From an uncultured Hyphomicrobiales bacterium (lineage in GTDB: Bacteria > Pseudomonadota > Alphaproteobacteria > Rhizobiales > Devosiaceae): a stretch of 54,620 nt of DNA. The DNA lies in NCBI GenBank assembly GCA_903842455.1, contig CAIMLX010000225.1, forward strand, positions 1-54,620, given 5' to 3'. Positions within the stretch are counted from its first letter, which is position 1, and each line of letters starts with the position of its first letter. The translations under genes and the position numbers were made by a program. Shown in pieces: positions 33,112 through 51,823 of the stretch. The notes below the pieces were generated by a model. The model was not told the DNA's origin. It saw only the letters and a program-made list of their open reading frames with translations, and searched no databases.

Positions 33112-33127
33112 GTTCAGCCAGTTGAAC
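33112..33127. promoter_or_regulatory. Palindrome GTTCA-N6-TGAAC, possible distal IclR operator
   Basis: GTTCAGCCAGTTGAAC is a perfect inverted repeat with 5-base arms and a 6-base spacer. It has the same geometry as the GTTCC-N6-GGAAC site 105 bases downstream (33217-33232), and the spacers are nearly identical (GCCAGT and GCCAAT). It may be an auxiliary operator for the IclR gene at 33279. Confidence 0.5.
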
Positions 33128-33194
33128 ATCGTTTCCCCCTACGAACGTTTTACCGCCAACGCTGTCATTCCCGGTTGACTTGGGCAGCCCGCCG

Positions 33195-33232
33195 GTTCTC
33201 ACTGGTGGGACAGCGTGTTCCGCCAATGGAAC
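33195..33232. promoter_or_regulatory. Tandem IclR-type operator upstream of iclR-rhaM operon
   Basis: GTTCCGCCAATGGAAC (33217-33232) is a palindrome with arms GTTCC/GGAAC and a 6-base spacer. A degenerate second copy, GTTCT-N7-GGGAC, lies at 33195-33211, with centres about 21 bases apart (two helical turns). The same GTTCC-N6-GGAAC motif stands upstream of the other IclR-containing operon (51779-51794). It lies 47 bases before the regulator's start, so autoregulation is likely. The assignment to IclR binding is inferred. Confidence 0.62.
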
Positions 33233-33278
33233 GCACGGCAAGACGACAAAAGTCGCTGCCCAGGGGAGGAGTTTCCGG

Positions 33279-34064
33279 TTGTCCAGTCCGCGGCGGACCA
33301 TCCATGTGCTTGACCTGCTCGCCCGCAAGGGTGCGCTGGGCGTGCGTGGCATCGCCCAGCAGCTCGACCTGCCGGTCGGCTCGGTGCACCGCCTGCTGCT
33401 GGAACTCGCCGAAGAGAACGTCGTCGAGCGCAATGCCGATGGCGCCTGGCAACTGGGATACCGCCTGCTGGAAATCACCGACCTGCAACTCGACGGCGTC
33501 GGCTTCCCGCGCCTGGCGCGGCCGTACTGCGAGGCCATCGCCGAGGTGACGCGCGAGACGGTCAACGTCAACGTGCTGAGCGGCGACGCCTGCGTGTGCA
33601 TCGACAAGGTGCGTGGCAACGAGGGGATGCAGCTCGACTGGCGCATCGGCTCGCGCGGCCCGCTTTATGCCGGGGGCAGTGCCAAGGCGATGCTGGCCTT
33701 CATGAGCGAGGCCGACCAGGTGCGGGTGGCGAACGGCCCGAAGACCCGCTTCACGTCCCATACGCTCACCGATGCAACGGCGCTGCTGATCGAACTGGGC
33801 CGCATCCGCGAGCGCGGCTACTCGATCGACGACCAGGAACTGGTGCTGGGCGTGTTCTGCGTCGGGGTGCCGATCCTCGACCGCATCGGCCGGCCGGTGG
33901 GCGGGATCAGCGTTTCGGGCCCGACGCCCAAGACGCCCGGCGCCGAACTGGAGCTGCTGGTGAAGCGCCTGCACGAGGCGTGCGGGCAGGTCAGCAAGCG
34001 ACTTGGATATGTGGGGGCCTGGCCGCCGCGCGACGTGGTCGCGCCGCCGCTCGTGGCCGTTTGA
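33279..34064 (+). CDS. IclR-family transcriptional regulator (copy 1)
   Basis: A 261-residue regulator: an N-terminal winged helix-turn-helix (about residues 5-65, ending LPVGSVHRLLLELAEENVVER) and a C-terminal IclR effector domain (SETVNVNVL-like strand, CIDKVRGNEGMQLDWRIGSRGPLYAGGSAKAMLAF, and a late YSIDDQELVLGVFCVGVPI). I place the start at TTG 33279, 8 bases after GGGGAGGA; the frame upstream runs through the operator region and is not protein-like. It heads a plus-strand operon of sugar-acid genes and is a close paralogue of the regulator at 45671-46468. Confidence 0.87.
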   Translation: MSSPRRTIHVLDLLARKGALGVRGIAQQLDLPVGSVHRLLLELAEENVVERNADGAWQLGYRLLEITDLQLDGVGFPRLARPYCEAIAEVTRETVNVNVLSGDACVCIDKVRGNEGMQLDWRIGSRGPLYAGGSAKAMLAFMSEADQVRVANGPKTRFTSHTLTDATALLIELGRIRERGYSIDDQELVLGVFCVGVPILDRIGRPVGGISVSGPTPKTPGAELELLVKRLHEACGQVSKRLGYVGAWPPRDVVAPPLVAV

Positions 34065-34076
34065 GGGAGGAAGACG

Positions 34077-34385
34077 ATGATCCGATCTGCATGGGTGATG
34101 AAGCTGAAGCCCGGCCAGGAGGCCGAATACAAGCGCAAGCACGACGAGATCTGGCCCGAGATGGTCGAGCTGCTGAAGAGCCAGGGCGTCACCAACTACT
34201 CGATCTACGCCTACGACCTGCTGCTGTTCGCCTACCTCGAAAAGCCCGACGGCGCGCCGTCGCAGACCGAGGGCGTCGATCCGGTGGTGCTGAAGTGGTG
34301 GAAGTGGATGGAGCCGCACATGGAAACCCATGAGGACGCGCGGCCGAAATCGTGGCCCGTCAATCTCGTCTTCCGGATGGACTGA
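34077..34385 (+). CDS. rhaM: L-rhamnose mutarotase (RhaM family, copy 1)
   Basis: 102 residues, the size of E. coli RhaM, with the family's active-site residues: H22 (KRKHDEIWPE), Y41 (NYSIY) and the W74-W75 pair (KWWKWM). It interconverts the alpha and beta anomers of L-rhamnose, or of L-fucose in some family members, supplying the anomer needed by the dehydrogenase. It follows the IclR gene by 12 bases with GGGAGGA upstream. A second copy sits in the same position relative to the second IclR gene (45345-45659). Confidence 0.88.
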   Translation: MIRSAWVMKLKPGQEAEYKRKHDEIWPEMVELLKSQGVTNYSIYAYDLLLFAYLEKPDGAPSQTEGVDPVVLKWWKWMEPHMETHEDARPKSWPVNLVFRMD

Positions 34386-34393
34386 GGCGCGCC

Positions 34394-35281
34394 ATGGCAA
34401 AGCTGCAGATTGTCGATCCGCATATCCACCTGTGGGACCTCTGGACCCGCATCTACCCGCATTTCGAAAAGCCCGGCCCGGGCGGCGCGAGCGCAACGAT
34501 CTGCCGTTCCTACCTGATCGACGAGTACCTCGAAGAAGGCCGCGACGACTTCGAGATCGTCGGGGCGGTGCATGTCGAGGCGTTCCCGACCGATCCTATC
34601 AAGGAAACCGAAACGCTGCAGGCAGTGGCCGATACCAAGAAGCTGCCGCTGGTGATCGTCGGCAATGGCGACCTGGGGTCGAAGGATTTCCCGGCGCTGC
34701 TCGACCGGCACCAGGCGTTCCCGATCTTCCGGGGCATCCGGCAGGTCGTGAACATGCATCCCGACCCCAAGCGGAGCTACACGAGCCGCGACCTGATGGC
34801 GGAGCCGCAGTTCCTCGAAGGGCTGCGCGAGCTTGGACGGCGCGGCCTGAGCTTCGACCTGCAGCTCTATCCGCACCAGATGGACACCGCGGCGGCCCTC
34901 GCGGCACAGGCGCCGGATACGCAGATCATCCTCAACCACGCCGGCATGTGGGCCGACCGCGACCTGAGCGGCTGGAAGCAGTGGAAGGCGGGGATGCGGA
35001 CGCTCGCCGCGCGACCCAACATCGTCGCCAAGATCAGTGGCCTCGGCATGCTCGACACTGGCTGGACCACCGAGAGCATCCGGCCGCTGGTGCTCGAGAG
35101 CCTCGAGGCGTTCGGGACGGAGCGCGCCATGTTCGCCTCCAACTTCCCGGTCGACAAGCAATACACCGACTTTGTGACGGTCTGGCGCGCCTTCGACGCG
35201 ATCACCAAGGGGTTCTCGGAGGGTGAGCGCACCGGCCTCTTCCGCGATAACGCCCGCAAATATTACCGCATTGCCGCCTGA
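34394..35281 (+). CDS. COG3618 amidohydrolase, probable rhamnono/fucono-lactonase
   Basis: A 295-residue TIM-barrel amidohydrolase. The metal motif HxH is at H10/H12 (VDPHIHLWDL), with a barrel histidine in LNHAGMW and the late aspartate region SNFPVD. The family includes L-fuconolactonase and L-rhamnono-1,4-lactonase, which open the lactone made by the sugar dehydrogenase. Position between mutarotase and dehydratase supports that step. The ATG at 34394 is used; an upstream in-frame start overlaps rhaM. 2-Pyrone-4,6-dicarboxylate lactonases belong to the same superfamily but do not fit the context. Confidence 0.82.
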   Translation: MAKLQIVDPHIHLWDLWTRIYPHFEKPGPGGASATICRSYLIDEYLEEGRDDFEIVGAVHVEAFPTDPIKETETLQAVADTKKLPLVIVGNGDLGSKDFPALLDRHQAFPIFRGIRQVVNMHPDPKRSYTSRDLMAEPQFLEGLRELGRRGLSFDLQLYPHQMDTAAALAAQAPDTQIILNHAGMWADRDLSGWKQWKAGMRTLAARPNIVAKISGLGMLDTGWTTESIRPLVLESLEAFGTERAMFASNFPVDKQYTDFVTVWRAFDAITKGFSEGERTGLFRDNARKYYRIAA

Positions 35282-35299
35282 CGGCGGAGGAGAATTACC

Positions 35300-36484
35300 T
35301 TGAAGATCAAGAGCATCGAAGCCTTCACCATCACCAACCCGATTGCCGGTGGCACCTACGAGGAAGCCAAGCAGCGGGGCAGTGCGCGGCGGCCGCCGTG
35401 GACCAAGGATGCCGAGGTGGCGAACCCGATGTCGCGCTACCCGCGCTACAAGGCGCTGCGTGCCAGCTGGAACGCCAAGTTCCCGGCAGTGGGCGTGATC
35501 GTCACCGCCGACGATGGCAGCTGGGGCTTCGGCACCACGGGCTACGGCCAGCCGACGGTGTCGATCATCAACGACCACATCGCGCCGCTGCTCGAGGGCG
35601 AGAACGCGCTGGCGACCGAGAAGCTCTACGACATGATGATGCGCATCGTGTCGCCGTACTCGGCGTCGGGGCTCGCGTCCTACGCCGTGTCGGGCATCGA
35701 CCTGGCGCTGTGGGACCTCAAGGGCAAGGTGCTGAAGCTGCCGGTATACGAACTGGCGGGCGGCGCGGCGCGGGACAAGCAGTTCTGCTACGCCACCGGC
35801 AACGACACCGACTGGCACATGGAGCTGGGGTTCAAGGCGACGAAGCTGGCGTGCCCCTACGGCACGGCCGATGGGCTCGATGCGCTCGACAAGAACGAGG
35901 CTTTCGTCGGCAAGGCGCGCGAGCTGATCGGACCGCATGTGGAGTTGATGCTCGACTGCTGGATGGCGTTCGATGTGGAGTTCGCGGTGCGGCTGGCGCA
36001 CCGGCTGCGGCCGTTCAACCTCAAGTGGATCGAGGACTGCCTGATCCCGGAAGATCACAGCAGCCACAAGGCTTTGCGCGAGCGGCTGCCGTGGCAGACG
36101 ATCGCTACCGGCGAGCACTGGTACACGCCCTACACCTTCTTCGAGGCGGCAAAGGATCGCGTCGCGGACATCTTCCAGCCCGATATCCACTGGGTCGGCG
36201 GCTTCACGGCCTGCCAGAAGATCGCGTCGATCGCCGAGTATGCCGGGCTCGACATGTACTGCCATGCGGGCATGAACACGCCCTACGGCCAGCACTTCAC
36301 CATCGCCTCAACGGCGTCGAAGTGGGGTGAGTTCTTCGTTGGCGGCGCCGTCGGGCAGCCGCTCAAGGAGACCAACAACTATCCGGGGATGGCGGTGCCG
36401 GTCGACGGCTACGTCGTCGTCTCGGACGAGCCGGGCTTCGGCCACGGACTGAGCAAGGACGCCATCGAGAAGATGGTGGTCTGA
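35300..36484 (+). CDS. Enolase-superfamily dehydratase, L-rhamnonate dehydratase-like
   Basis: 394 residues. It shares with E. coli RhmD the segments LMLDCWM, LKWIEDCL and GIDLALWDLKGKV. The metal ligands fall at D219, E245 and E272, and the catalytic His at H322 (MYCHAGMN), with spacings (26, 27, 50) nearly those of RhmD. The reaction would be dehydration of L-rhamnonate to 2-keto-3-deoxy-L-rhamnonate; RhmD enzymes also accept L-mannonate and L-lyxonate. The start is TTG 35300 behind GGAGGAG. It follows the lactonase by 18 bases. L-fuconate dehydratase is the main alternative but is usually longer. Confidence 0.8.
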   Translation: MKIKSIEAFTITNPIAGGTYEEAKQRGSARRPPWTKDAEVANPMSRYPRYKALRASWNAKFPAVGVIVTADDGSWGFGTTGYGQPTVSIINDHIAPLLEGENALATEKLYDMMMRIVSPYSASGLASYAVSGIDLALWDLKGKVLKLPVYELAGGAARDKQFCYATGNDTDWHMELGFKATKLACPYGTADGLDALDKNEAFVGKARELIGPHVELMLDCWMAFDVEFAVRLAHRLRPFNLKWIEDCLIPEDHSSHKALRERLPWQTIATGEHWYTPYTFFEAAKDRVADIFQPDIHWVGGFTACQKIASIAEYAGLDMYCHAGMNTPYGQHFTIASTASKWGEFFVGGAVGQPLKETNNYPGMAVPVDGYVVVSDEPGFGHGLSKDAIEKMVV

Positions 36485-36573
36485 GGATGGTCAGCGGGCC
36501 TGCCCCGATCTGGCGGCCTGCCTGAACAGTAGACGAACGACTTCTGAACGAGATCCTGGAGGAGGAAATCCGA

Positions 36574-38352
36574 ATGAACTTAGGACTGAAGAAAATCCTG
36601 ACTGGCAGCGCGATGGCGCTGCTGGCCGGTTCGCTGATGGCGACCACTGCGATGGCGCAGGTGGCCGACATGCCGCGTAACGAAACGCTGGTGCTGACCC
36701 CCTGGGGCGACCAGCCGGCACAGTTCGCCAACACGGAGAACTGGCACCCCTACCTGACCTCGGTGACGCATCAGCGCGACGCGATGCAGATCACCGTCAA
36801 CGAGGGGTTGTTCTACACCAACCTCAACACGGGCGAATTGATCCCCTGGCAGGCCGAAAGCTACGAGAACGCAGCCGACTTCATGTCGGCGACGATCAAG
36901 CTGCGCGACGGCGTGGAATGGAGCGACGGGCAGAAGTTCACTGCCGAGGACGTGAAGTTCACCCTCGAGACGCTGCGCGACGCGCCGCCGGAAATCAACG
37001 GCTCGGCCTCGTTCAAGGAATGGGTGAAGGACGTCGAGGTCGTCGATGCGCTGAACCTCAAGATCAATTTCAACAAGTCGGCGCCGCGCTTCGTGCGGGA
37101 CTTCCTGGCGCTTGGCCACGAGAACCACTACCCGGTCCTCGCCAAGCACATCTGGGAAGGTCAGGACATCACGACCTTTACCAACTACGATCTGGCCAAG
37201 GGCTGGCCGGTTGGCACGGGTGCCTACAAGCTCGTGCTCTCGACCAACCAGCAGGAAATCTTCGATCGCCGCGACGACTGGTGGGGAGCCAAGGTCGGCT
37301 TCGAGGACCTGCCGGCGCCCAAGCGCATCATCCTGGTGCCGGTCTCGTCGGACGACGCGATGGGCCAGCTGCATATCGCCAACCAGATCGACGGCGGCCG
37401 CCAGCTGCTGATCGGTACGTTCGAGGCCGCACGGGCCCAGAACGACAAGCTCGCCTCGTGGAACCCGGAAGGTCCGAACTGGGGTGCCCCGGACGGCTGC
37501 GACTACTCGCTGGTCTTCAACCAGATGAAGGCGCCGTGGAACGACGTCAACCTGCGCTACGCAATGAACTTCGCCATCGATCGCGATGGACTGAACGACA
37601 TCGGGTACGAGGGCAGCCAGAGGCCCGTGACCTTCGCGTTCTCCAACTACATGGCCGGCACCTGGCTGGGTGAAGGCAGCCCGCTGCAGGCGGTGCTGGA
37701 CAAGTACGACCTCGACAACCCCGATCCCGCCAAGGTCGAGGAATACATGACCAAGGCCGGCTACGCCAAGGACGCCAACGGCCTCTGGGCCAAGGACGGC
37801 ACGGCACTGCAGGTGACGGTGCGGACTCCGGCCTTCATCCAGCCGGTGCTGGCGCCGCTGACGCAGCAGCTGAAGAATGCCGGCTTCGACGCGGTTCAGG
37901 CACCGGTCGACGACACCTGGCTTCCCGACATCCAGAGCGGCAATTTCGACACGATGATCTTCGTGCATTGCGGTTCGCTGTCGGAGCCGCTGGAGACGCT
38001 GCAGCACTACCACAGCAAGTTCGCGCGGCCGCTCGGGGAGAACATCCCGAACGCCATCGCGGCCTCGCGCTACATGAACCCCGAGTATGACGCGCTGATC
38101 GATGCCATGGACGCCGTCCCGGCCAGCACGGATCCGGACTCGGAGTACATGAAGAACGCCGTGGCGGCGCTCGACATCGCGCTGCGCGACCTGCCGCAGA
38201 TCGACATGCTCGAAGAGTACCATGTGGTGACGTTCAACAACACTTACTGGACCGGTTGGCCGTCGGCTGCCGATCCGTACGTGGCGCCGTACACCCCGTG
38301 GGAAGCCTTCAACGTGGTGATCCACAAGCTGCAGCCGACCGGCGCGCAGTAA
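36574..38352 (+). CDS. ABC importer substrate-binding protein, family 5 (system 2)
   Basis: A 592-residue exported protein with a signal peptide ending AMAQ near residue 29. It has SBP_bac_5 features: NEGLFYTNL, KLRDGVEWSDGQKFTAEDVKFTLETL, and AMNFAIDRDGLNDIGYEG. It ends LQPTGAQ like its paralogue at 24537-26321. GGAGGAGG precedes ATG 36574. It lies inside the rhamnose-type operon, so a rhamnose-containing oligosaccharide (for example from pectin) is a more likely ligand than a peptide; this is inference from neighbourhood only. Confidence 0.9.
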   Translation: MNLGLKKILTGSAMALLAGSLMATTAMAQVADMPRNETLVLTPWGDQPAQFANTENWHPYLTSVTHQRDAMQITVNEGLFYTNLNTGELIPWQAESYENAADFMSATIKLRDGVEWSDGQKFTAEDVKFTLETLRDAPPEINGSASFKEWVKDVEVVDALNLKINFNKSAPRFVRDFLALGHENHYPVLAKHIWEGQDITTFTNYDLAKGWPVGTGAYKLVLSTNQQEIFDRRDDWWGAKVGFEDLPAPKRIILVPVSSDDAMGQLHIANQIDGGRQLLIGTFEAARAQNDKLASWNPEGPNWGAPDGCDYSLVFNQMKAPWNDVNLRYAMNFAIDRDGLNDIGYEGSQRPVTFAFSNYMAGTWLGEGSPLQAVLDKYDLDNPDPAKVEEYMTKAGYAKDANGLWAKDGTALQVTVRTPAFIQPVLAPLTQQLKNAGFDAVQAPVDDTWLPDIQSGNFDTMIFVHCGSLSEPLETLQHYHSKFARPLGENIPNAIAASRYMNPEYDALIDAMDAVPASTDPDSEYMKNAVAALDIALRDLPQIDMLEEYHVVTFNNTYWTGWPSAADPYVAPYTPWEAFNVVIHKLQPTGAQ

Positions 38353-38382
38353 AGGCAAAAAGCCTTCGGTCCTCCCGACCGA

Positions 38383-38412
38383 GCGGGCGGCGACGTCTTC
38401 CCCGCCGCCCGC
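38383..38412 (+). terminator. Hairpin after binding-protein gene (system 2)
   Basis: GCGGGCGGCG (38383-38392) pairs perfectly with CGCCGCCCGC (38403-38412) around a 10-base loop, 30 bases after the stop. There is no U-run. It again separates a binding-protein gene from its permeases. Confidence 0.65.
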
Positions 38413-38451
38413 ACCTCCTGAACGCTTCTGTGGAACCGAAACGGTGCACCT

Positions 38452-38555
38452 TTCCAAACGTGTCATCCCCGCGACAGCAGGGACCCACCTCCCCACCAGC
38501 GCCGACTTCAAGTTGGGTCCCTGCTTCCGCAGGGATGGCAACGTTGGGGAACGGT
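38452..38555. repeat. REP-like repeat between binding-protein and permease genes
   Basis: GCAGGGACCCA (38477-38487) and TGGGTCCCTGC (38514-38524) form an 11-base perfect inverted repeat, flanked by GTGTCATCCCCGC and CGCAGGGATGGC. It is of the same general type as the GGATCCCGGCC element near position 50. It fills most of the 255-base gap before the permease gene, in which I see no coding sequence. Confidence 0.65.
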
Positions 38556-38607
38556 CCCCCTCAGTGACCCGACGGAGCGTGCCCGGTCGACGGATGCGGA
38601 TAGAACA

Positions 38608-39612
38608 ATGAGCAAGGAAATCGTGCGCTACATCGCGACGCGCTTCGGCCAGCTGCTGGTCGTCGTGTTCGTGGCGGTGAGCGTCAACTTCATCATTCCG
38701 CGGCTGCTGCCGGGCGATCCGGTGCAGACCGCGCTGGCGCGGCTGCAGACCAGCGGTGGCGCGGCCAATGTCGACATCCAGGCGGTCTCGGCGGCCTATC
38801 GGGCGCGCTACGGCCTTGATGCACCGGTCTGGCAGCAATACATCAATTACTGGGGCGACCTGCTGACGCTGGACCTCGGGGTGTCGTTCGCGAACTTCCC
38901 CGAGAAGGTATCGACGATGATCGGCAACGCGTTGCCGTGGTCGGTGACGCTGCTGGCCGTGGCGACGCTGATCGCCTTCTCGGTCGGCTCGCTGCTCGGC
39001 GCGAGGCTCGCCTGGCCGACGGCGGGGCGCGGGATCAAGTCGCTCGTGCCCTTCCTGATGGTCCTGACGTCGATCCCGTTCTACCTGCTGGCGATCATCC
39101 TGATCTATTTCTTCGCGGTGGTGCTGAAGTGGTTTCCACCGGCGGGCGGCGTCGACACGACGCGCATCATGCGGCTCGACTGGGCCACAACCTACGACAT
39201 CCTCGAACACGCATTCCTGCCGTGCATGGCGATCGTGCTGGGCAATGTCGGCTTCTGGGCGCTCGGCATGCGCAGCCAGATGGTCAACGTGCTGGGTGAG
39301 GACTACATCACGTTTGCCGAGGCCAAGGGCCTGCATCCGCGCCGCATTTTCGTCTGGTACGGCATGCGCAACGCGCTCCTGGCCCAGGTAACGGCACTCG
39401 CATTGAGCCTCGGCTCGGTGGTGTCGGGTGCGGTGCTGGTCGAGGTGATCTTCAACTATCCCGGCCTCGGTTCGCTGCTCTACGTGGCCATCCGCGGACA
39501 GGACTATTTCGTTATCCAGGGTGTGGTGCTGATGCTCATCGTCTCACTGGCGGTGCTGCTGTTCATCGTCGACCTGCTTTATCCGCTGCTTGACCCGAGG
39601 ATCCGGCGATGA
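38608..39612 (+). CDS. Peptide-type ABC importer permease, DppB-like (system 2)
   Basis: A 334-residue permease with an N-terminal charged segment and helix (ATRFGQLLVVVFVAVSVNFIIPRLLPGDPV), the extracytoplasmic RARYGLDAPVWQQYINYWGDLLTLDLG segment, further helices, the permease loop (FAEAKGLHPRRIFVWYGMRNALL), and the family ending LLYPLLDPRIRR. It overlaps the DppC-like gene by ATGA. Confidence 0.91.
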   Translation: MSKEIVRYIATRFGQLLVVVFVAVSVNFIIPRLLPGDPVQTALARLQTSGGAANVDIQAVSAAYRARYGLDAPVWQQYINYWGDLLTLDLGVSFANFPEKVSTMIGNALPWSVTLLAVATLIAFSVGSLLGARLAWPTAGRGIKSLVPFLMVLTSIPFYLLAIILIYFFAVVLKWFPPAGGVDTTRIMRLDWATTYDILEHAFLPCMAIVLGNVGFWALGMRSQMVNVLGEDYITFAEAKGLHPRRIFVWYGMRNALLAQVTALALSLGSVVSGAVLVEVIFNYPGLGSLLYVAIRGQDYFVIQGVVLMLIVSLAVLLFIVDLLYPLLDPRIRR

Positions 39613-40472
39613 ACCGCTTCTGGGCCAATCTCAGGCGCAACTACGAGCAGGGACGGATCAGTCCACTGCTGATCGTCGGCCTCGGCATCCTGCTCGCCGT
39701 CGTGCTCTTCGGGCTGATCGGACCGTTCTTCACCGATGCAACAAACGCCCAGGTGGGCGCGGTGCGGCCGCGCCGCCCGCCCGGTGGCGACTACTTGCTC
39801 GGCACCGACTCGCAGGGTCGGGACATGTGGACGCTGTTGATCTACGCCACGCCCAACACGCTGAAGATGGGCCTGATCGCCGGCTTCATCGGGGTCGGGC
39901 TCGGCACCGTGCTCGGGCTGATCGCCGGGCAATTCGGCGGCTGGATCGATGCGGTGATCCGGGTGATCTCGGATTCGCTGCTGACCGTGCCGGCCATCGC
40001 CATCCTCGTGATCATCGCTGGCAATATCGACCGGATGAGCACCTTTGTGATGGCGCTGGTGGTGGCATCGCTGGGCTGGATGTTCACCGCCCGCACGGTA
40101 CGGGCACAGGTGCTGTCGATCCGCGAAAAAGCCTATGTGGAAGTGGCAAGGGTGAACGGTGAAGGCCCGTGGGAAATCCTGTTCCGCGAGGTGATGCCCA
40201 ACATCATGCCGTATATCGTCGCGAGCTTCGTCGGCACCGTGTCGGGGTCGATCCTCGCGGTGATCGGGCTCGAGGCGCTGGGTCTCGGCGCGCTCGAGGA
40301 GATGACGCTGGGCAACACCATCTACTGGAGCCAGCAGAGCTCGGCGGTGCTGCGCGGCTACTGGTGGTGGTGGGGGCCGCCGATCGTGATGATCGCGCTG
40401 ATCTTCATCGGGCTGTTCCTCACCTCGGTCGGCTTCGACCGGTTCGCCAACCCCCGTCTGGCGAGGCGCTGA
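39609..40472 (+). CDS. Peptide-type ABC importer permease, DppC-like (system 2)
   Basis: A 287-residue permease. After a short charged N-terminus and first helix come the family's DYLLGTDSQGRDMWTLLIY segment, the helices, and the permease loop VNGEGPWEILFREVMPNIMPYI. It ends FDRFANPRLARR, typical of DppC proteins. The start overlaps dppB by 4 bases and the stop overlaps the next start (TGATG). Confidence 0.91.
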   Translation: MNRFWANLRRNYEQGRISPLLIVGLGILLAVVLFGLIGPFFTDATNAQVGAVRPRRPPGGDYLLGTDSQGRDMWTLLIYATPNTLKMGLIAGFIGVGLGTVLGLIAGQFGGWIDAVIRVISDSLLTVPAIAILVIIAGNIDRMSTFVMALVVASLGWMFTARTVRAQVLSIREKAYVEVARVNGEGPWEILFREVMPNIMPYIVASFVGTVSGSILAVIGLEALGLGALEEMTLGNTIYWSQQSSAVLRGYWWWWGPPIVMIALIFIGLFLTSVGFDRFANPRLARR

Positions 40473-42510: not shown

Positions 42511-42527
42511 GGGGTTTTGGAGAGACC

Positions 42528-43274: not shown

Positions 43275-43294
43275 TTTTGCACTGAGGACCAGAG

Positions 43295-44323: not shown

Positions 44324-44366
44324 GCTGTGCGCTGAGAGGGCGTGGATGACCTTCCCTTCACCCTGA

Positions 44367-44388
44367 CCCTCTCCCCGTGGGGAGAGGG
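44367..44388. terminator. Bidirectional terminator between convergent operons (repeat-derived)
   Basis: CCCTCTCCCC (44367-44376) and GGGGAGAGGG (44379-44388) form a perfect 10-base palindrome in the 101 bases between the convergent AKR and DHDPS-family genes. The same core with CTCACCC(C)TGACCCTC-type flanks occurs at 49799-49830, and a related core within 5395-5552. This suggests the terminator role is served by a dispersed repeat. Confidence 0.6.
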
Positions 44389-44424
44389 GATGTGGTTGCT
44401 GGGACGGTGGTCCATGCGTGGGAC

Positions 44425-45330
44425 TCAGCCGGCGAAGGTCTTTGCCGTCGGGACGATCTCGGCGAGGACGTCGTCGATTTCGCGCTGGGTGAGGGGGTCG
44501 ATCTTCATCGTCGGGCTGCGGACATGGGCGGTGCGGATGATGCCGCGGCGGACCAGCAGTTGCTTGTGGGCGTGGTAGAACAGGTCGCCGCCCTGGCCGC
44601 CGAGGCGGTTCATGCCGATGAAGGCGTCGTTGAAGACTTTTCGCGCGCCCTTTTCGTCGCCACTGTTGAACAGGTTCCAGACGGCGACGTATTCGGCCGG
44701 CTGGCTGCAGAACGGCATGGTGCCGCGGGCTCCGCGGCGGAGTTCCTCGATGAAATAGACGCCGCCGGCGCCGCCGAAAATGGTCAGGCGGCCGGTGACA
44801 GCCTTTGCCATGTCGGCGACCTTCTGGGTCATCGGCAGGGTTTCGACCTTGATGTACTTGATGTTCTTGCAGTTGTCGGCGAGGCGAAGGGCCAGGCTGG
44901 GCGAGATCGGGGCTTGCGGGATGTCCTGCAGGATCATCGGTATCGAAACCGCCGCGTTTATGGCGCTGTAGTAGTCGAAGATCTCGTCGGCACCGACCGG
45001 GAAGAAGGTCGGCGGCATGATCATCAGCGCATCGGCGCCACCCTTTTCGGCGGCGATGGCGTGCTGCACCGCAAGGTGCGTGCCGGCGGCACCGGTATTG
45101 ATGATCACCGGGACGCGCTTGTTGGTCTGCGACACGACGATGCGGACGATCTCGGCGCGCTCGGCCTCGCTGAACTTGAACACCTCCGAGCCGAGCGCCA
45201 CGCCGAGGCCGTCGATGCCGGCATCGACGTTGAAGTCGATCAGCGAGCGCAGGCTCGCCTCGTCGATGCGGCCGTCGTCGAAGAACGGCGTGATCAGGAT
45301 GGGGACGACGCCCTCGATGACGGAACTCAT
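44425..45330 (-). CDS. DHDPS/NAL-family lyase or dehydratase
   Basis: A 301-residue TIM-barrel protein of the DapA/NanA family. The Schiff-base lysine is K161 (YIKVETLP). The position where DapA has the YNxP tyrosine reads QDIP (135-138), so the usual proton-relay tyrosine is absent. The substrate loop reads ALGSE instead of GTTGE. Such enzymes cleave or dehydrate 2-keto-3-deoxy sugar acids. Here it would act on the product of the enolase-superfamily dehydratase of the same operon. I cannot tell aldolase from dehydratase. ATG 45330 is used; it lies 14 bases after the mutarotase stop. Confidence 0.82.
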   Translation of the reverse strand: MSSVIEGVVPILITPFFDDGRIDEASLRSLIDFNVDAGIDGLGVALGSEVFKFSEAERAEIVRIVVSQTNKRVPVIINTGAAGTHLAVQHAIAAEKGGADALMIMPPTFFPVGADEIFDYYSAINAAVSIPMILQDIPQAPISPSLALRLADNCKNIKYIKVETLPMTQKVADMAKAVTGRLTIFGGAGGVYFIEELRRGARGTMPFCSQPAEYVAVWNLFNSGDEKGARKVFNDAFIGMNRLGGQGGDLFYHAHKQLLVRRGIIRTAHVRSPTMKIDPLTQREIDDVLAEIVPTAKTFAG

Positions 45331-45344
45331 GGGGTGGGTGACCT

Positions 45345-45659
45345 TTAGCGGTTCTCGAAGTTGAACATCTCTTGCACCGGGTACTGAACCGGCGAGAAAT
45401 CGGGGTTGGTTTCCATGTAGGGCGCCATCATTTCCCACCAGCGCCAGGTGAGATCGGTGGGCTTGTCGGCGGGGTTGGGCGCGGTGTCGCGCTCCATGTA
45501 GGCAAACAGGTCGAGCCCGTGCAGGTAGATCGAGAAGGTGCGCACGCCGTCGCGCTTCATGTTCTCGAGCATCTCGGGCCAGATTTCGTCGTGCTTTTGC
45601 TTGTAGATGGCTTCGTTGCCGGGCTTGAGCCGCATGACCCAGGCGAGACGGTGCGTCAT
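45345..45659 (-). CDS. rhaM: L-rhamnose mutarotase (RhaM family, copy 2)
   Basis: 104 residues, aligned end to end with copy 1 (34077-34385). H23 (KQKHDEIWPE) and the tryptophan pair (WRWWEMM) are kept, but the position of the active-site Tyr41 of RhaM is F42 (TFSIY). The substrate or rate may therefore differ from copy 1. AGGAG lies just before the start. It follows IclR copy 2, the same order as copy 1. Confidence 0.86.
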   Translation of the reverse strand: MTHRLAWVMRLKPGNEAIYKQKHDEIWPEMLENMKRDGVRTFSIYLHGLDLFAYMERDTAPNPADKPTDLTWRWWEMMAPYMETNPDFSPVQYPVQEMFNFENR

Positions 45660-45670
45660 TCCATGTTCTC

Positions 45671-46468
45671 CTAGGCGGCGCCGATGAGTGACCTGGGCAC
45701 GGCCGTGGTGCCAAGATCGCCCGGCCAGGGGCCGGAATAGCCGAGACGGTGGCTGACGTGTCGAGCAGCGTCCTGCAGCATGGCGACGAGCGGCAGCACC
45801 TCGGTGCCGGGCTTTTTCACCGACGGCCCGGTGATGCTGATCGCTCCGGCGGCGTGGCCGAGCCGATCGAGGATGGGAACCGAGACGCAGTAGACGCCGA
45901 CCACCACTTCCTGGTCGTCGATCGAATAGCCGCGCTCGCGGATCCGGCCGATTTCGTCGCGCAGCAGCGCCGGGTCGGTGATGGTGAAGGGGGTAAGGGA
46001 TTCGAGAGGAGCGGCGTAGACAAGCTCGCGCTCGGTTTCGTCCATGAAGGCGAGCATGGCCTTGCCAGCGCCGCCGCAGTTCAGCGGCCCGCGCGAGCCG
46101 ATGCGGTTATCGAGCTGCATGCCCTCGTTGCCGCGGACCTTGTCGATGCAGACGCCGGCGCGGCCGTAAAGGGCGTTGAGGTTGACCGTCTCGCTGGTGG
46201 CGGCCGCGATGGTTTCGGCGAAGGGGCGAAAGAGGCGCGGCAGCTCGATGCGCTCGAGCTGCAGGCCGGTGATCTCGAGCAGGCGGTAGCTCAGCTCCCA
46301 TTCGCCCGACGGGGTGCGGTCGACGATGCCTTCCTCACTGAGGTCGAGGAGCAGGCGGTGGACCGACCCGAGGGGCAGGCTCAGTTGCTGGGCGACCGCG
46401 CGCACCCCCAGCGGACCCTTGCGGGCCAGCAGGTCCATCGCCTGAACGGATCGGGTGATGGCGGACAT
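45671..46468 (-). CDS. IclR-family transcriptional regulator (copy 2)
   Basis: 265 residues: a winged helix-turn-helix at about residues 5-60 (SVQAMDLLARKGPLGVRAVAQQLSLPLGSVHRLLLDL) and an IclR effector domain. The blocks VCIDKVRGNEGMQLD, RIGSRGP, GKAMLAFM and RERGYSIDDQE are shared with copy 1, showing a paralogous pair. It is embedded in the middle of its minus-strand operon rather than at its head. The shared operator motif upstream of the operon (51779-51794) is the likely target. Confidence 0.9.
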   Translation of the reverse strand: MSAITRSVQAMDLLARKGPLGVRAVAQQLSLPLGSVHRLLLDLSEEGIVDRTPSGEWELSYRLLEITGLQLERIELPRLFRPFAETIAAATSETVNLNALYGRAGVCIDKVRGNEGMQLDNRIGSRGPLNCGGAGKAMLAFMDETERELVYAAPLESLTPFTITDPALLRDEIGRIRERGYSIDDQEVVVGVYCVSVPILDRLGHAAGAISITGPSVKKPGTEVLPLVAMLQDAARHVSHRLGYSGPWPGDLGTTAVPRSLIGAA

Positions 46469-46490
46469 GCGCGGTCGTTCCTCGTCGTTG

Positions 46491-47681
46491 TTACCAGTGG
46501 GTCTTCTTGGTGGTGACGTTGGGGTCCATCAGGTTGTCGTTGATGTAATCCCACTCGATCTGGTAGCCCATGCCCGGGCCCTTGGGGAGGTGCACGTAGC
46601 CTTCGGCGTCGATCTTGTCGACAATGTCCTTGAGGTAGGGGTGGGGCTTGTCGTAGTCGACGCCCGGCGCCAGCAGGCCCTTCTCGTAGTATTCCGACGT
46701 GTCTTCGGAGGTGGCGCCGCAGACCTGCAGGTTGCCCCAGCCGGCCATGTGCATCTCGCAGCGGAGGCCATAGGCCTCGGCGACGATCGCGGTCTTGCGG
46801 GCGCCGGTGATGCCGCCCCGCACGACGTCGATGCGGCTCATGTCACCCGCACCGCGGAGGATCCACTCGGCGCGCGAGAACACGCCGCCGGCGACGATCT
46901 CGGGGCTCAGGATCGGGATCGACAGTTCCTTCGAAAGCCGCACATAGCTCTCGACCCGGTATTCCGGCATCGGGTGCTCATACCAGTAGAAGTTCAGCTT
47001 CTCGAGTTCGCGGCCGACCTGGATGGCTTCCTCGAGGGACATGTAGGTGCCCCAGGGATCGAACATCAGCACGTAGTCGGGGCCGACGGCTTCGCGCACC
47101 AGGTGGCAGGTCTCGATGTCGGCCTTGATGTTGGACGGGCGGCCGGGCGTCGGGGTGCCGGTGGCCGGATTCCAGAAGTAGTGCGGGTGGATCTTGTAGG
47201 CGAGGTAGCCCTCGTTCTTGCACTGCAGCGCATGGTCCGCATAGACCTGCGGCTTGCCGATATTGGGGTAGGTCGAGGCGTAGGCCTTCACCTTGTCGCG
47301 GGCGCCGCCCATCAGCTTGTAGACCGGCAGCTTGGCGTAGTTGCCGGCGAGGTCCCACAGCGCGTTGTCGATCACCGAGGCGACATTTTCCTGGATGTTG
47401 GCGACCCACATCCATTTCCAGATCATCTCGCGATCCATCGGGTCCTGCCCGACGAGCAGGTCCTTGATCCGCCACAGGATCATCTGCTGGTCAACGATGT
47501 TCAGCCCTTCGGCATCGCCATGCGAGCCGCCGCCGAAATAGTTGCCGGTGACGCCTTCGTCGGTGTGGATGGTGAGCACGGTCTGCAGCATCGGCGTATC
47601 CGGCATCGGGCGGGCATAGCCCACGTCGAAGCGGTCGGCAGTGGTGCGGAACGACTTGATGGTGATGTCCGAGATTTTCAC
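46491..47681 (-). CDS. Enolase-superfamily sugar-acid dehydratase (mandelate racemase subgroup)
   Basis: 396 residues. The C-terminal barrel shows K163-I-H165 at the end of the second strand, metal ligands D208 (FDPWGTY), E235 (YEHPMPE) and E261 (SPEIVAGG), and H311 (EMHMAGWG) as a likely acid/base. This pattern is that of mandelate-racemase-type acid-sugar dehydratases, not of RhmD. The protein differs from 35300-36484, so the two operons probably handle different acids. The start is GTG 47681. The specific substrate is not assignable from motifs. Confidence 0.83.
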   Translation of the reverse strand: MKISDITIKSFRTTADRFDVGYARPMPDTPMLQTVLTIHTDEGVTGNYFGGGSHGDAEGLNIVDQQMILWRIKDLLVGQDPMDREMIWKWMWVANIQENVASVIDNALWDLAGNYAKLPVYKLMGGARDKVKAYASTYPNIGKPQVYADHALQCKNEGYLAYKIHPHYFWNPATGTPTPGRPSNIKADIETCHLVREAVGPDYVLMFDPWGTYMSLEEAIQVGRELEKLNFYWYEHPMPEYRVESYVRLSKELSIPILSPEIVAGGVFSRAEWILRGAGDMSRIDVVRGGITGARKTAIVAEAYGLRCEMHMAGWGNLQVCGATSEDTSEYYEKGLLAPGVDYDKPHPYLKDIVDKIDAEGYVHLPKGPGMGYQIEWDYINDNLMDPNVTTKKTHW

Positions 47682-47707
47682 GGTACGGGTCCCTTGAGTG
47701 GTCGCGG

Positions 47708-48712
47708 TTATTCGAAGGCGTCGCCGCCGCGCAGGCGGTCGAGAAGGACGGCGGCGAGCAGCAGCAGGCCGACGATGATATTGACGTAGTAGGGGCTGAT
47801 GGCCAGCAGATCGAGGATGTTGGACACGCCGGCCACGGCCAGCAGGCCGAGCGCGCCGCCGATCGGGTTGCCGACGCCGCCGCGCAGGATCGAATAGCCG
47901 CCGATCATCAGCGCCGCATAGACCTGGAACTCGAGGCCGAGACCGGTGGCGCGAGCTGCCGAGCCGAGCTGGCCGGCAAAGACGATGCCGCCAAGGCCGG
48001 CGCCGAAGGCCGAGAGCAGCAGGGCGCCGGCGCGGACGCGCTTCACCGAAATGCCGGCGCGGGCCGCCGCCTTGTCGTCACCGCCCACCGCCTGCACGTG
48101 GCGGCCGATGCGGGTCCTGGTGACGATGAGCGCCGCCAAGAGGGTCAGGCCGATGGCGAGGAGGAAGAACAGCGGCAGGCCGAAAACCTGAGTGGAAACG
48201 AGATTGAACAGCTCGATGTTGAAGGCAAAGATCGCGCCCTGCGTGCCGAGCAGCACCCAGGTGATGCCGCGCAGCGCTACCAGCATGCCGAGGGTCGCGG
48301 CGATCGGCTCGGCGCCGAAGCCGACGATGGCCACCGCGTTGATGGCGCCGAAGAACAGGCAGAAGGCGAGGGTAACCGCGGCCGCCGAGAACGGGTCCCA
48401 CCCCATGGACAGCAGCAGGGCGAAAATGGCGGACGAGAAGCCGACCATCGAACCGATCGACAGATCGACGACGCCCGAGAGCAGGGCGAAGCCGGCAAAG
48501 GCGCCGACGATCAGCGGCACGATCAGGAAGGTGCCCATGATCGAGACATTGCCGAACGAGACGAATTTGGGGCCGACCCAGAACAGGCCAACGGCCAGCA
48601 CCAGGATGAAGGTGATGCCGATGGAGGCGACCGAACCGGTGAGGAAGTCGCGCACCGGATGGTGCGGCAGGACGTAGTCTGCCGGCTCGGACTTGAGTGC
48701 AGTATCGGTCAC
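47708..48712 (-). CDS. Sugar ABC permease, RbsC/CUT2 family (b)
   Basis: 334 residues, a BPD_transp_2 permease with helices such as ITFILVLAVGLFWVG and the family's GVVDLSIGSMVGFSSAI segment. The start is GTG 48712, overlapping the previous stop as GTGA, with GGAGGA a few bases upstream; the frame open further upstream lies inside the other permease gene. It forms a heterodimer with the permease at 48709-49698. Confidence 0.88.
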   Translation of the reverse strand: MTDTALKSEPADYVLPHHPVRDFLTGSVASIGITFILVLAVGLFWVGPKFVSFGNVSIMGTFLIVPLIVGAFAGFALLSGVVDLSIGSMVGFSSAIFALLLSMGWDPFSAAAVTLAFCLFFGAINAVAIVGFGAEPIAATLGMLVALRGITWVLLGTQGAIFAFNIELFNLVSTQVFGLPLFFLLAIGLTLLAALIVTRTRIGRHVQAVGGDDKAAARAGISVKRVRAGALLLSAFGAGLGGIVFAGQLGSAARATGLGLEFQVYAALMIGGYSILRGGVGNPIGGALGLLAVAGVSNILDLLAISPYYVNIIVGLLLLAAVLLDRLRGGDAFE

Positions 48713-49698
48713 GGAGTCCTCCGGAGCGCGCGGTAGCCGTCGATGGACACGGCGATGATGAGGATGATGCCCTGGAAGATCGACTGGGTGTCCGAACTCA
48801 GCCCGAAGAACACCAACGAGGTGGGGATGGTGCTGAGGAAGCCGATCGACAGCAGCAGCATCCAGAAATTGCCGCGCCCGCCGCTCAGCGAGATGCCGGC
48901 GAGGATGACGCCCGCGATGATGTTGAGCTGCAGGGTATTTGCCGATGACGGGTTGAACGGTCCGGCGGTGCCGGCGAACAGCACCGCGGCGAAGCCGACG
49001 AAGCCGCCGGCGATGATGAAGGTGGCAAACCGGGTGGCCCGGAGCGAAATGCCGCGGGCCTTGGCGGCAGCGCGGTTGCCGCCGACGGCGATCATGCGGC
49101 GGCCGTAGCGGGTGCGGGGCACGAGGAAGCCGACGATCAGCACGAGGGCCAGCATGGGCCAGAAGATGGCGGGCAGCCCGAGCCAGCTCTGGCGGCCGAA
49201 GACGTAGATGTCGGAATTGAGTGGTACCTGCGCCAGCTGGAACACCAGGTAGAGCGCAGCGAGCCCGATGAAATTGGTGGCGAGCGTCACGATCACCGGG
49301 TTCAGCTTGGCGAAGACGATGATCAGCGCATTGAAGCCGCCCCACAGCATGCCGGTCAGGATGGCGCCGAGGATGACGACGGGGAAGGGCATCCCGGCTT
49401 CGGAGAGGCGCACGGCGACGAGGCTGGCGCTGATCAGTCCGGCAGGCTGGGAAAGGTCGATGAAGCCGCCCGACATGCCGATGATGCCCTGCCCGATGGC
49501 GAGGACGCCGACGATCGACATGGTGAAGGCAACAGCGAGCAGGGTCTGCTGCGCGAAGAAATCGGGGCGGTAGAGGCCGGTCGCGACGATCAGCGCGATC
49601 CACACCGCAGCAAGGATCAGGCCGGTGCCGAGCCCGCCGAAGCGGACTTTCAGCGGCGCCGCAGGGGGCGCGGTATCGAGGGCTTGATTGACGGACAT
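48709..49698 (-). CDS. Sugar ABC permease, RbsC/CUT2 family (a)
   Basis: 329 residues with helices from about residue 25 and the RbsC-type motif MSGGFIDLSQPAGLISASL, where the usual DLSVGS is changed to DLSQPA. The two permease genes are overlapping and clearly paralogous. Together with the binding protein and single ATPase upstream they make a four-gene CUT2 importer. It follows the binding-protein gene across a repeat-containing gap of 145 bases. Confidence 0.88.
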   Translation of the reverse strand: MSVNQALDTAPPAAPLKVRFGGLGTGLILAAVWIALIVATGLYRPDFFAQQTLLAVAFTMSIVGVLAIGQGIIGMSGGFIDLSQPAGLISASLVAVRLSEAGMPFPVVILGAILTGMLWGGFNALIIVFAKLNPVIVTLATNFIGLAALYLVFQLAQVPLNSDIYVFGRQSWLGLPAIFWPMLALVLIVGFLVPRTRYGRRMIAVGGNRAAAKARGISLRATRFATFIIAGGFVGFAAVLFAGTAGPFNPSSANTLQLNIIAGVILAGISLSGGRGNFWMLLLSIGFLSTIPTSLVFFGLSSDTQSIFQGIILIIAVSIDGYRALRRTP

Positions 49699-49719
49699 CG
49701 GCAGGATTCCGGACGGGGC

Positions 49720-49831
49720 GGGTTTCCTTCTCCCCGATGGGGAGAAAGTGTCGAGGCAAGCGAGACGGATGAGGGGCAGGTCAAACGGGACTGCCCCTCA
49801 CCCCGACCCTCTCCCCGGTGGGGAGAGGGGG
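49720..49831. repeat. Palindromic repeats between binding-protein and permease genes
   Basis: Two perfect palindromes are present: GAGGGGCAG (49771-49779) with CTGCCCCTC (49791-49799), and CCCTCTCCCC (49807-49816) with GGGGAGAGGG (49820-49829). On the minus strand they directly follow the binding-protein stop and may act as a partial terminator. The second core matches the one at 44367-44388. Confidence 0.65.
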
Positions 49832-49843
49832 GAGGAGCTGAGG

Positions 49844-50896
49844 TCAGCCCTTGTTGGGGCAGAACAGGTCGTAGGCGGTGGTGCCGGCCGGGGCAGCGAG
49901 AAGCTGCGCGACGCGCTCAGGCATGTCGGGCACCGACTTGGCCTGCTCGGCGGTGACCGGGCACGGCTGGACCTTCGAAGCCGGATCGCCGGCATCGGCC
50001 TTCAGCGGCGGGGTGTTGCCGTCGGCGACCGGCTTGATCACGTCGCGAACGGCGTAAACGGCGTAGCCTTCGAGGAAGTAGAACACCGAGCCCACGAGGT
50101 GCGGGTTGACGTTGTCGCCGGTGATGAAGGCGCCGTCCTGGCCCCAGCCGATGACTTCATCGGCACGACCCAGCTGCTCGGCAGCGTTGATGAGGCCGAG
50201 CACGCCGCCATCATTGATGCCGACGACGGCCATCTTGACCGCGTTGGGGTTGGCGGCGAGCAGGTCGCGCGCCGGCTGCAGGGCGACCGCTGCGTCGCCG
50301 CTGCCTTCGAACGAGACGTACTTCTCGGCCGGGATATCCGGGCAGATGTTCTTGACGCCGGTGCGCATGCCGCCGGTGCGCCACTCGTTGACGATGCCGG
50401 CGCCGGCACCCTCCGACGAGATGACCAGGTCAGGCTCGCAGTTCCACTTTTCCTTGATGATCTTGCCGAGGGCCTCGCCGCCGGCAATGCCGGCGCCGAG
50501 ATTGTCGATGCCGACGAAGTACATGCCGGGGTCGGCGATGTCGTAGGTGACGATCGGGATGTTGGCCTGCTTCATGACCGCCGAGATCGCCGGATTGGAC
50601 GAGGGCTGGCCGTTGAACTGGATGACGGCGTCGACGCCTTCCTGCACGAAGATCTGGGCGTTCTTGAGCGCCGTTGCCGGATCGTTGTTGTTGGACAGCT
50701 CGACGTAGTCCCAGCCGTTCTGTTCGGCGATGGCGCGGGCGACGTCGCCCTGGGCCTTCATCCACTCGCAGCAGGTGTTGCCACCCACGGCCATGCCGAG
50801 CTTGAACTTGTCCTGGGCCTCGGCAATGCCGACGAAGCCGAGGACGGCGGGGGTCGCGAGCGCCATGACGGCGATGGCCCGCTTCATAGTATGCAT
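49844..50896 (-). CDS. Periplasmic sugar-binding protein, CUT2 type
   Basis: 350 residues with a signal peptide (about 1-27, ending AEAQ) after GGAGGAGAG. The mature part has the type I binding-protein layout: LGMAVGGNTCCEWMKAQGD at the first ligand strand, VQEGVDAVIQFNGQPSSNP, VGIDNLGAGIAGGEALGKII, then GINDGGVLGLINAAEQ and GWGQDGAF. Vicinal cysteines C37-C38 are unusual near the ligand site. It is the receptor of the CUT2 importer in the second IclR operon. A pentose or 6-deoxyhexose is a reasonable guess only. Confidence 0.88.
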   Translation of the reverse strand: MHTMKRAIAVMALATPAVLGFVGIAEAQDKFKLGMAVGGNTCCEWMKAQGDVARAIAEQNGWDYVELSNNNDPATALKNAQIFVQEGVDAVIQFNGQPSSNPAISAVMKQANIPIVTYDIADPGMYFVGIDNLGAGIAGGEALGKIIKEKWNCEPDLVISSEGAGAGIVNEWRTGGMRTGVKNICPDIPAEKYVSFEGSGDAAVALQPARDLLAANPNAVKMAVVGINDGGVLGLINAAEQLGRADEVIGWGQDGAFITGDNVNPHLVGSVFYFLEGYAVYAVRDVIKPVADGNTPPLKADAGDPASKVQPCPVTAEQAKSVPDMPERVAQLLAAPAGTTAYDLFCPNKG

Positions 50897-50935
50897 GTCT
50901 TCTCTCCTCCTGGTGGTATTCGGTAGTCGCCGGCT

Positions 50936-51751
50936 TCAGGCCGGTATCTGCTGTGCTGCCCGGGCCTCCGGGCTGTCGCCGGGGACGGCGCCGGTGATCA
51001 GCCCGACGATCTCGGAGACGTCGGTCTGCTTGACCGTGCGGGTGGCGATGGAGCGGCCGAGGCGCATCACGGTGATGCGGTCGGCGACGGTCATCAGCTG
51101 CTGCATGTTGTGGCTGACGATGATGACGCTGACGTCCTGCTCGCGGAGGCCGGCGATGACTTCGAGCACCTGGCCGGTTTCGCGGACGCCGAGCGCGGCA
51201 GTCGGCTCGTCGAGAATGACGATGCGGCGACCCCAGAGCAGGGCGCGGGCGATGGCGAGGCACTGGCGCTGGCCGCCGGACATGCCCTTCACCGAGACGT
51301 TGATCGAGGGGACCTTCACCTTCAGCGAGTCCAGGACCTCGCGGGCGCGGGCGCGCATTTCCCTGTCGTCGACGAGGTTGAAGAGGCGGGCGATGGGGTT
51401 TTTCGAGAGCTGCTCGCGGCCGAGGTAGACGTTCTGGTAGGCGCTCATCGTGTCGACGAGCGCGAGGTCCTGATAGACGGTCTCGATCCCCGCATCCATG
51501 GCATCCTGGGCGCGCCTGAGGGTGACCGGCTTGCCGTCGATGGCGATCTCGCCGTCGGAGGGCGCGAGGATGCCCGAGAGAATCTTCAGCAGCGTGGACT
51601 TGCCGGCGCCATTGTCGCCGACGAGGCCGACGACTTCGCGCGGGTAGAGCGTCATCGACGCATCGGCGAGCGCGACCACTGCACCGAAATGCCGCTTGAT
51701 GTGACGCGCCTCGAGCACCGGCGAAGCCGATGCACCAGTGGTGCTCTCCAT
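50936..51751 (-). CDS. Sugar ABC importer ATPase, single-domain CUT2 type (FrcA-like)
   Basis: 271 residues with Walker A GDNGAGKS (45-52), signature VKGMSGGQRQCLAIARAL, Walker B IVILDEPTAALG and switch VSHNMQQL. Most CUT2 ATPases (RbsA, XylG) are double-domain proteins of about 500 residues. This one has a single domain, as in the fructose-type FrcA, and would work as a homodimer. I chose ATG 51751 behind GGGAGGA; the open frame to 51805 reads through the operator. It is the first gene of the eight-gene minus-strand operon. Confidence 0.88.
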   Translation of the reverse strand: MESTTGASASPVLEARHIKRHFGAVVALADASMTLYPREVVGLVGDNGAGKSTLLKILSGILAPSDGEIAIDGKPVTLRRAQDAMDAGIETVYQDLALVDTMSAYQNVYLGREQLSKNPIARLFNLVDDREMRARAREVLDSLKVKVPSINVSVKGMSGGQRQCLAIARALLWGRRIVILDEPTAALGVRETGQVLEVIAGLREQDVSVIIVSHNMQQLMTVADRITVMRLGRSIATRTVKQTDVSEIVGLITGAVPGDSPEARAAQQIPA

Positions 51752-51778
51752 GCAGTCCTCCCGCGACGTCTTTGCGTC

Positions 51779-51823
51779 GTTCCAGATATGGAACGTGCGT
51801 CCCATATTGAGAACGGTATGGGA
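51779..51823. promoter_or_regulatory. Tandem IclR-type operator upstream of CUT2 operon
   Basis: GTTCCAGATATGGAAC (51779-51794) is a perfect palindrome, extendable by one base pair each side (CGTTCC...GGAACG), with the same GTTCC-N6-GGAAC arms as the site at 33217-33232. Next to it, on the minus strand, GTTCTCAATATGGGAC (51813-51798) is a degenerate copy centred 19 bases away. An overlapping inverted repeat, TCCCATA (51800-51806) / TATGGGA (51817-51823), is also present. It lies 28 bases before the ATPase start. IclR binding is inferred. Confidence 0.62.

Follow-up and report, generated by a model that had tools for sequence, protein, structure and literature searches.

Suvorova and Gelfand (2021, PMC8222616) describe group 1, group 2 and three-box motifs among the operators of IclR-family regulators. 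One member of the family, the IclR-type repressor FucR (Cj0480c), controls L-fucose utilization in Campylobacter jejuni, and its DNA binding was observed by electrophoretic mobility shift assay (PMC12566272). The regulators described for L-rhamnose operons, whose products include the mutarotase RhaM, belong to the AraC, DeoR and LacI families (PMC3870299), and an alphaproteobacterial inositol motif, GGAA-N6-TTCC, has been linked to IolR (PMC2597717). The subject of this work is a pair of tandem palindromic sites with the core GTTCC-N6-GGAAC, located upstream of two convergent operons of an uncultured Hyphomicrobiales bacterium, each of which contains one of two paralogous IclR-family genes, icl1 and icl2. 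The window, i.e. the whole stretch of DNA that was analyzed, comprises 54,620 nt of contig CAIMLX010000225.1 (assembly GCA_903842455.1) and has a G+C content of 66%. The sites are probably operators of IclR repressors, each occupied by a two-dimer tetramer of the operon's own regulator and relieved by a ligand, and they would stem from an ancestral regulon that was split, the gap between the dimer sites being 5 bp at operon 1 and 4 bp at operon 2.

Conserved tandem sites upstream of two convergent operons

Operon 1 is located on the forward strand (33279-44323) and is headed by icl1 (33279..34064, with a TTG start), while operon 2 is located on the reverse strand (51751-44425) and is headed by a sugar ATP-binding cassette (ABC) transporter ATPase gene (50936..51751), icl2 (45671..46468) being internal. 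Icl1 and Icl2 both carry HTH_IclR and IclR_C domains above the gathering scores and are two of the five IclR_C proteins found in the genome; the strands and the 61% identity of the two proteins bear out the convergent operons with paralogous IclR genes that had been proposed from the sequence alone. Neither protein reached the cut-off of the NCBIfam equivalogs for BhcR, KdgR and PcaR/PcaU (163/350, 129/275 and 115/285 bits, respectively, for Icl1; 144, 119 and 120 bits for Icl2).

The core palindrome of operator 1, GTTCCGCCAATGGAAC (33217..33232, forward strand), is an exact GTTCC-N6-GGAAC; its upstream tandem partner, GTTCT-N7-GGGAC (33195..33211), has its right box, GGGAC, separated from the core by 5 bp, and a putative -35 box, TTGACT (33175..33180), precedes the core by 42 nt. 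Operator 2, on the reverse strand, is composed of the equally exact core GTTCCATATCTGGAAC (51779..51794) and, 4 bp away, the partner GTTCTCAATATGGGAC (51799..51814), a GTTCT-N6-GGGAC and thus one base shorter than its operon 1 counterpart. This partner of operator 2 overlaps the -10-like sequence TACCGT (51813-51818) and is followed further upstream by a putative -35 box, TTGACA (51837..51842). The exact core occurs at 33217 and 51779 only, so the claim of the sequence-only reading that it precedes both operons and is unique in the window holds; the tandem neighbours that it described also exist, but with centre distances of 21.5 nt (operon 1) and 20 nt (operon 2) instead of about 21 and 19.

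Relatives were collected through a protein search of 61 genomes (G numbers below; L numbers denote loci) and a scan of named genomes, in which 79 of 261 related loci were kept. Loci L126-L128 and L130-L174, with 28-38% identity, were not included in the operator reading, and rows for L123, for duplicate genome records and for operon 2 of G012, G007 and G013 (contig ends) were dropped. The motif recurs upstream of orthologous operons, as the sequence-only reading would have it, in the closest relatives, which belong to Devosia, and further in Kaistia, a Bauldia metagenome-assembled genome (MAG) and Rhodobacterales MAGs. All 34 of the 34 sites read show a core, a second box and a TTGAC 40 to 50 nt upstream of the core; this distance is 40-49 nt in 16/16 operon 1 sites and 47-50 nt in 15/15 operon 2 sites, the sites for this count and for the gap count given below having been located beforehand and not blind. 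Upstream of the operon 2 ATPase gene, the core is exact in all six relatives in which the start of operon 2 is present, and also in RYN_485, RYN_494, Kaistia defluvii, the Bauldia MAG, a Hyphomicrobiales MAG, G002 and G017; among the 14 operon 2 sites outside the window, it has the form GATCC-N6-GGATC in one, that of a Rubellimicrobium MAG. The core at the 15 other Icl1-headed sites often has one base altered, frequently as ATTCC-N6-GGAAC, with a GGAAC box 5 bp away. We do not claim a compensatory change of half-site and recognition helix in the Rubellimicrobium MAG, since one GATCC box occurs together with the usual helix in D. rhodophyticola and D. algicola, whose icl1 core is GATCC-N6-GGAAC. 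The sites persist while the flanking sequence mostly aligns poorly, even inside the genus, and each operon retains its own site in six relatives whose two operons are distant from each other or placed on separate contigs. Both operons are also present in D. insulae DS-56. Locus L123, on a contig labeled Burkholderiales bacterium 68-10, carries a Devosia operon 1 start with an operator identical to that of G010 and of Devosia sp. 66-14, the latter from a like-named sample; this label is probably a binning error.

The frequency of the motif at random positions, which the sequence-only reading had named as a possible objection, depends on how much of the site is considered. Matches to the core with at most two mismatches number 25 in the window versus 24.98 expected, so that degenerate copies alone carry no meaning, and the bare exact core, with six copies in the whole genome versus three for the reversed control and 5.0 expected from composition, is not enriched. 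In contrast, the composite GTTCCN6RGAAYN4-5GTYYC has two matches in the genome, both at these operons (control 0; expectation about 0.2). Since this pattern was written after the sites of the window had been seen, the relatives and not the genome count serve as the test. Scanning the 61 genomes with the composite gave 36 matches versus 17 for the reversed control, of which 21 lie at these operons, the other 15 being at chance level. No Icl, RhaM, MLE1 or MLE2 homologue was found alongside 27 of 28 distinct composite matches off these operons (G053:C105 was left out); in the comparison with the operon proteins, these positions gave only ABC-transporter homologues, one distant short-chain dehydrogenase/reductase (SDR) and one distant UxuA-like match. 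With a position matrix from which the window's own sites had been excluded, the two operator cores were the top two matches of the window (25.1 and 17.9 bits), followed by a match at 9.6. When the same upstream regions were shuffled 200 times, the best core matches stood at 0.5% or less for 10/10 and at 0.5-3.5% for 9/10, only the degenerate Rubellimicrobium operon 2 site reaching 19.5%; in G012, G026 and D. faecipullorum the automatic best match was not the expected operator.

The same matrix places among the background a third site of the sequence-only reading, GTTCA-N6-TGAAC (GTTCAGCCAGTTGAAC, 33112..33127, forward strand), which does exist but scores 4.0 bits (rank 8 in the window); this site and its neighbour at 33131 (-9.4 bits) were rejected as operators. 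In the close relative G012, changes at the 33112 site fall between the boxes, while the 33131 equivalent gains one box base and, at 9/10, equals G012's own operator.

An exact GTTCC-N6-GGAAC, considered as a candidate third target, was also observed at position 1004 of L041 (G000:C87; region 900-1063), between an inositol-type ABC ATPase gene and an RpiR regulator gene; it is 15/16 identical to operator 2 and has no visible tandem partner at 4-5 bp. Among ten relatives the inositol locus carries the exact core in one (G001, with a different spacer), one clear half-site in L180 and L181, and none in the rest, whereas all 11 genomes have a GGAA-N6-TTCC-like motif there, with one mismatch at most. 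We take IolR to be a member of the RpiR family.

Spacing of the dimer sites and the paralogous regulators

In a count whose pattern had the N6 core spacing built in, the two dimer sites are 5 bp apart at 16/16 Icl1-headed sites, and a 4-bp gap separates them at 15/15 operon 2 (Icl2) sites. Both operators could be read in nine genomes (the window, G001, G002, G010, G011, G014, G015, G017 and the Rubellimicrobium MAG), and in 9/9 the gap is 5 bp at operon 1 and 4 bp at operon 2. The recognition helix GS-(V/I/T/M)-HR is common to all listed Icl1 and Icl2 rows except that of G026, which reads AASALR. On the regulator tree, for which G012, G007 and G013 were given an assumed 4-bp label and the Rubellimicrobium Icl1-type L237 was left out, the gap label changes once.

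Genomes with a single regulator offer a further comparison. G009 possesses one orthologue, of the Icl2 type, and an icl1-less operon encoding RhaM, the enolase-superfamily dehydratase MLE1 and an aldo-keto reductase (AKR), whose operator has a 4-bp gap. The MLE1 of this operon is 90% identical to that of the window and falls inside a 13-row set associated with Icl1 and the 5-bp gap (support 99/98), and its TTGAC-to-core distance of 43 is as in operon 1, which suggests that the gap tracks the regulator. A clade test holding together the nine Icl1-linked MLE1 rows of the window's genus without G009 was not rejected (p 0.18), so that only the placement of the G009 MLE1 within the wider 13-row set is supported. 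One regulator was found in G026, with two facing sites that both have a 4-bp gap, and D. faecipullorum has an Icl1-type regulator only, with two facing sites of 5 bp each. Its locus L230, a candidate 4-bp exception, was taken as an inositol-type site, being located before an RpiR-like gene and containing GGAA-N6-TTCC. In G004, where no orthologue was found, rhaM-MLE1 is present and no operator site lies within 1500 bp. At L062 of G026 (9563-9774) the two operators face each other between a divergent MLE2-icl operon and an operon encoding an Opp-type importer and MLE1; here the system takes a compact form with one regulator.

The following mechanism is proposed. Each operon's own regulator, as a tetramer of two dimers, would occupy the two adjacent palindromic sites across the -10 region and start; bound just downstream of the TTGAC -35 box, it would block transcription, and a sugar-derived ligand would release it. 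Promoter occlusion is the most likely mode of repression because the expected transcription start coincides with the cores or lies just before them, and the distance of about two helical turns between the dimer sites fits a tetramer, as has been argued for tandem sites in the IclR survey (PMC8222616). With icl1 and icl2 located within their own target operons, both regulators would also be autoregulated. Icl1 and Icl2 presumably descend from one regulator that controlled a single ancestral regulon, which was split by duplication; half-site and recognition helix would have stayed near-identical afterwards, while the gap became 5 bp for Icl1 and remained 4 bp for Icl2. Since the recognition helices are shared, the reading of the half-sites should be nearly common to both regulators, and together with the fixed gap difference this suggests that dimer-dimer phasing adds specificity and now partly separates the paralogues. 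We propose tentatively, with a little less than even confidence, the stronger version, namely that the duplicated repressors are insulated by the one-base gap change, that phasing and not the helix sets specificity, and that an orphaned operon adopts the spacing of the remaining paralogue.

In full cross-regulation, as the sequence-only reading had proposed, either operator could be bound by Icl1 or Icl2 alike, in one regulon with redundant or two-input regulators. What stands of that proposal is that the operators are related and share their half-sites and N6 core, and that the helix is nearly common to both regulators; furthermore, in G009, and probably in G026, the two enzyme sets appear to be under one regulator. 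Free cross-regulation of the two operons is possible, but it is not favored, as the gaps differ by one base in all nine genomes with both operators, which argues for at least partial separation, and as three one-regulator genomes with two sites each show a single shared spacing. It is rather unlikely that the operators simply derive from one promoter, with the gap difference a frozen accident and the ligand alone setting specificity. Such inheritance agrees with the single change of gap label on the regulator tree and with icl adjoining rhaM in both operons, but it does not account well for operon 2, in which icl2 is internal and the operator precedes a different gene, the ABC ATPase gene, nor for the G009 MLE1 operon, with its 4-bp gap despite an operon 1-like TTGAC-to-core distance. 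IclR proteins may activate or repress (PMC12566272), and activator sites were considered as well; we regard them as improbable, given that in 34/34 sites the core lies 40-50 nt downstream of TTGAC, on or beyond the expected start, and a protein bound there would stand in the way of the polymerase. That a random palindrome happens to precede the two operons, four of its six exact genome copies lying elsewhere, is hardly credible in view of the cross-genus conservation at orthologous promoters, the fixed promoter position and the only two composite matches in the genome.

Several points weigh against the preferred reading of two spaced repressor operators. The exact core that stands without a partner at the inositol promoter of this genome and of G001 is not accounted for by this reading. 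The gap change maps once on the regulator tree and about once more in G009, which amounts to few independent events, and with assemblies that are 60% (G026) and 94% (G009) complete, a second regulator could be missing from either. The G026 regulator stands weakly beside the Icl1 clade (92/60), yet its gap is 4 bp. Half-sites diverge too, as shown by GATCC/GGATC at operon 2 of the Rubellimicrobium MAG. G007 (85% complete), which has MLE1 and an Icl2-type regulator, has no composite site anywhere in its assembly; the start of its operon 2 lies off the contig. Compared with the IclR survey, the GTT-10-AAC core (16 bp) is one base shorter than that of the nearest subgroup, GTT-11-AAC, and the 5-bp gap of operon 1 lies just outside the group 2 range (PMC8222616). 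Finally, function-specific NCBIfam models were all below cut-off in the rows shown, which leaves the substrate uncertain.

Gene content and probable substrate

Downstream of icl1, operon 1 encodes a protein of the L-rhamnose mutarotase family (rhaM1, 34077..34385; PF05336), an amidohydrolase weakly matching an L-fucono-1,5-lactonase model (34352..35281, start not fixed), the dehydratase MLE1 (35300..36484), which is nearest to L-rhamnonate dehydratase, an Opp/Dpp-type ABC importer composed of a substrate-binding protein, two permeases and two ATPases (36574..42510), an SDR dehydrogenase (42510..43274, start not fixed) and an AKR (43295..44323), all on the forward strand. The lactonase and dehydratase models match these proteins below their curated cut-offs. 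On the reverse strand, the ATPase gene of operon 2 is followed by genes for a ribose-type substrate-binding protein and two permeases (47708..50896), completing a ribose-type importer, the enolase-superfamily protein MLE2 (46491..47681; nearest solved relatives 1rvk/4hcd), icl2, rhaM2 of the L-rhamnose mutarotase family (45348..45659, with the stop codon just below 45348) and a DHDPS-family aldolase/dehydratase (44425..45330).

The mutarotase-family gene adjoins the regulator gene in both operons and was found in 28 of 33 searched icl-holding loci; of the five misses, two concern a single G026 locus and another two are due to contig ends. The mutarotase is the sole enzyme identified through a specific family match (RhaM above cut-off). 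As both operons encode such a protein, handling of 6-deoxyhexoses is probable, and to judge from the gene content the two operons probably serve the oxidative, non-phosphorylating breakdown of sugars of this type, e.g. L-rhamnose or L-fucose.

Some features of the neighbourhood are recorded here. Operon 2 of the window is without the AKR gene found after the DHDPS gene in most relatives, and abuts the AKR gene of operon 1 (44320-44430). In two Devosia MAGs (L103 and L104, 30-4700) a second AKR/amidohydrolase/enolase-superfamily set, 27-56% identical to that of operon 1, precedes operon 2. A 591-aa open frame upstream of operon 1 (31274-33046) has a UxuA/TIM-barrel domain confined to its second half, and in G011, G014 and G001 UxuA-like genes (54-64%) are found some 4 kb away from operon 2, an arrangement that looks like a swap of the neighbourhoods of the two operons.

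Comparison with described systems

With this locus, a probable IclR regulon joins the regulators known for 6-deoxyhexose use. The locus also represents a natural test system for paralogue interference, in which half-sites are the same, the helix is near-identical and the geometry differs by one base; two complete operons provide the readouts, and relatives in which only one regulator was found add contrast.

Among sugar regulators, the survey of L-rhamnose regulation differs in that its available part includes no IclR member (PMC3870299). The inositol motif shares its GGAA/TTCC boxes with the operator motif and may be confused with a part of the latter, as at L230, but it has the reversed box order and belongs to another pathway (PMC2597717). 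FucR provides a precedent for an IclR-type repressor adjoining a deoxy-sugar operon, although it is a single regulator and not one of a pair, and the strings 'palindrom' and 'mutarotase' are absent from the text (PMC12566272). In Salmonella, a single IclR-like regulator, SL1344_3500, governs two neighbouring sugar-acid operons, the sugar acid being xylonate (PMC12445098).

Our literature search found no IclR operator with GTTCC and no report linking IclR, rhamnose and Devosia, and the available main text of the IclR survey contains no Devosia and no rhamnonate (PMC8222616). The sequence-only reading had considered the motif undescribed, which needs correction: half-sites of the GTTCC/GGAAC type, boxes in alternating order and tandem palindromes whose centres are separated by 18-22 nt form a known pattern of IclR-family operators (PMC8222616), so that the motif represents no new kind of operator. 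The operators described here have palindromic boxes of the GTTYC/GRAAC type, and their tandem centres, at 20 nt (operon 2) and 21.5 nt (operon 1), lie within that 18-22 nt range. Both the window and the aligned orthologues have GTT-10-AAC instead of the box spacing of the described subgroups, GTT-11-AAC or NGT-12-ACN, which makes the core a variant and not a member of those subgroups. No report of IclR paralogues separated by spacing was found among the matches listed, most subscription journals being outside the search. Set against these systems, the half-sites and tandem layout are shared with known IclR operators, while the gap rule that separates the operators of the two paralogues is new here.

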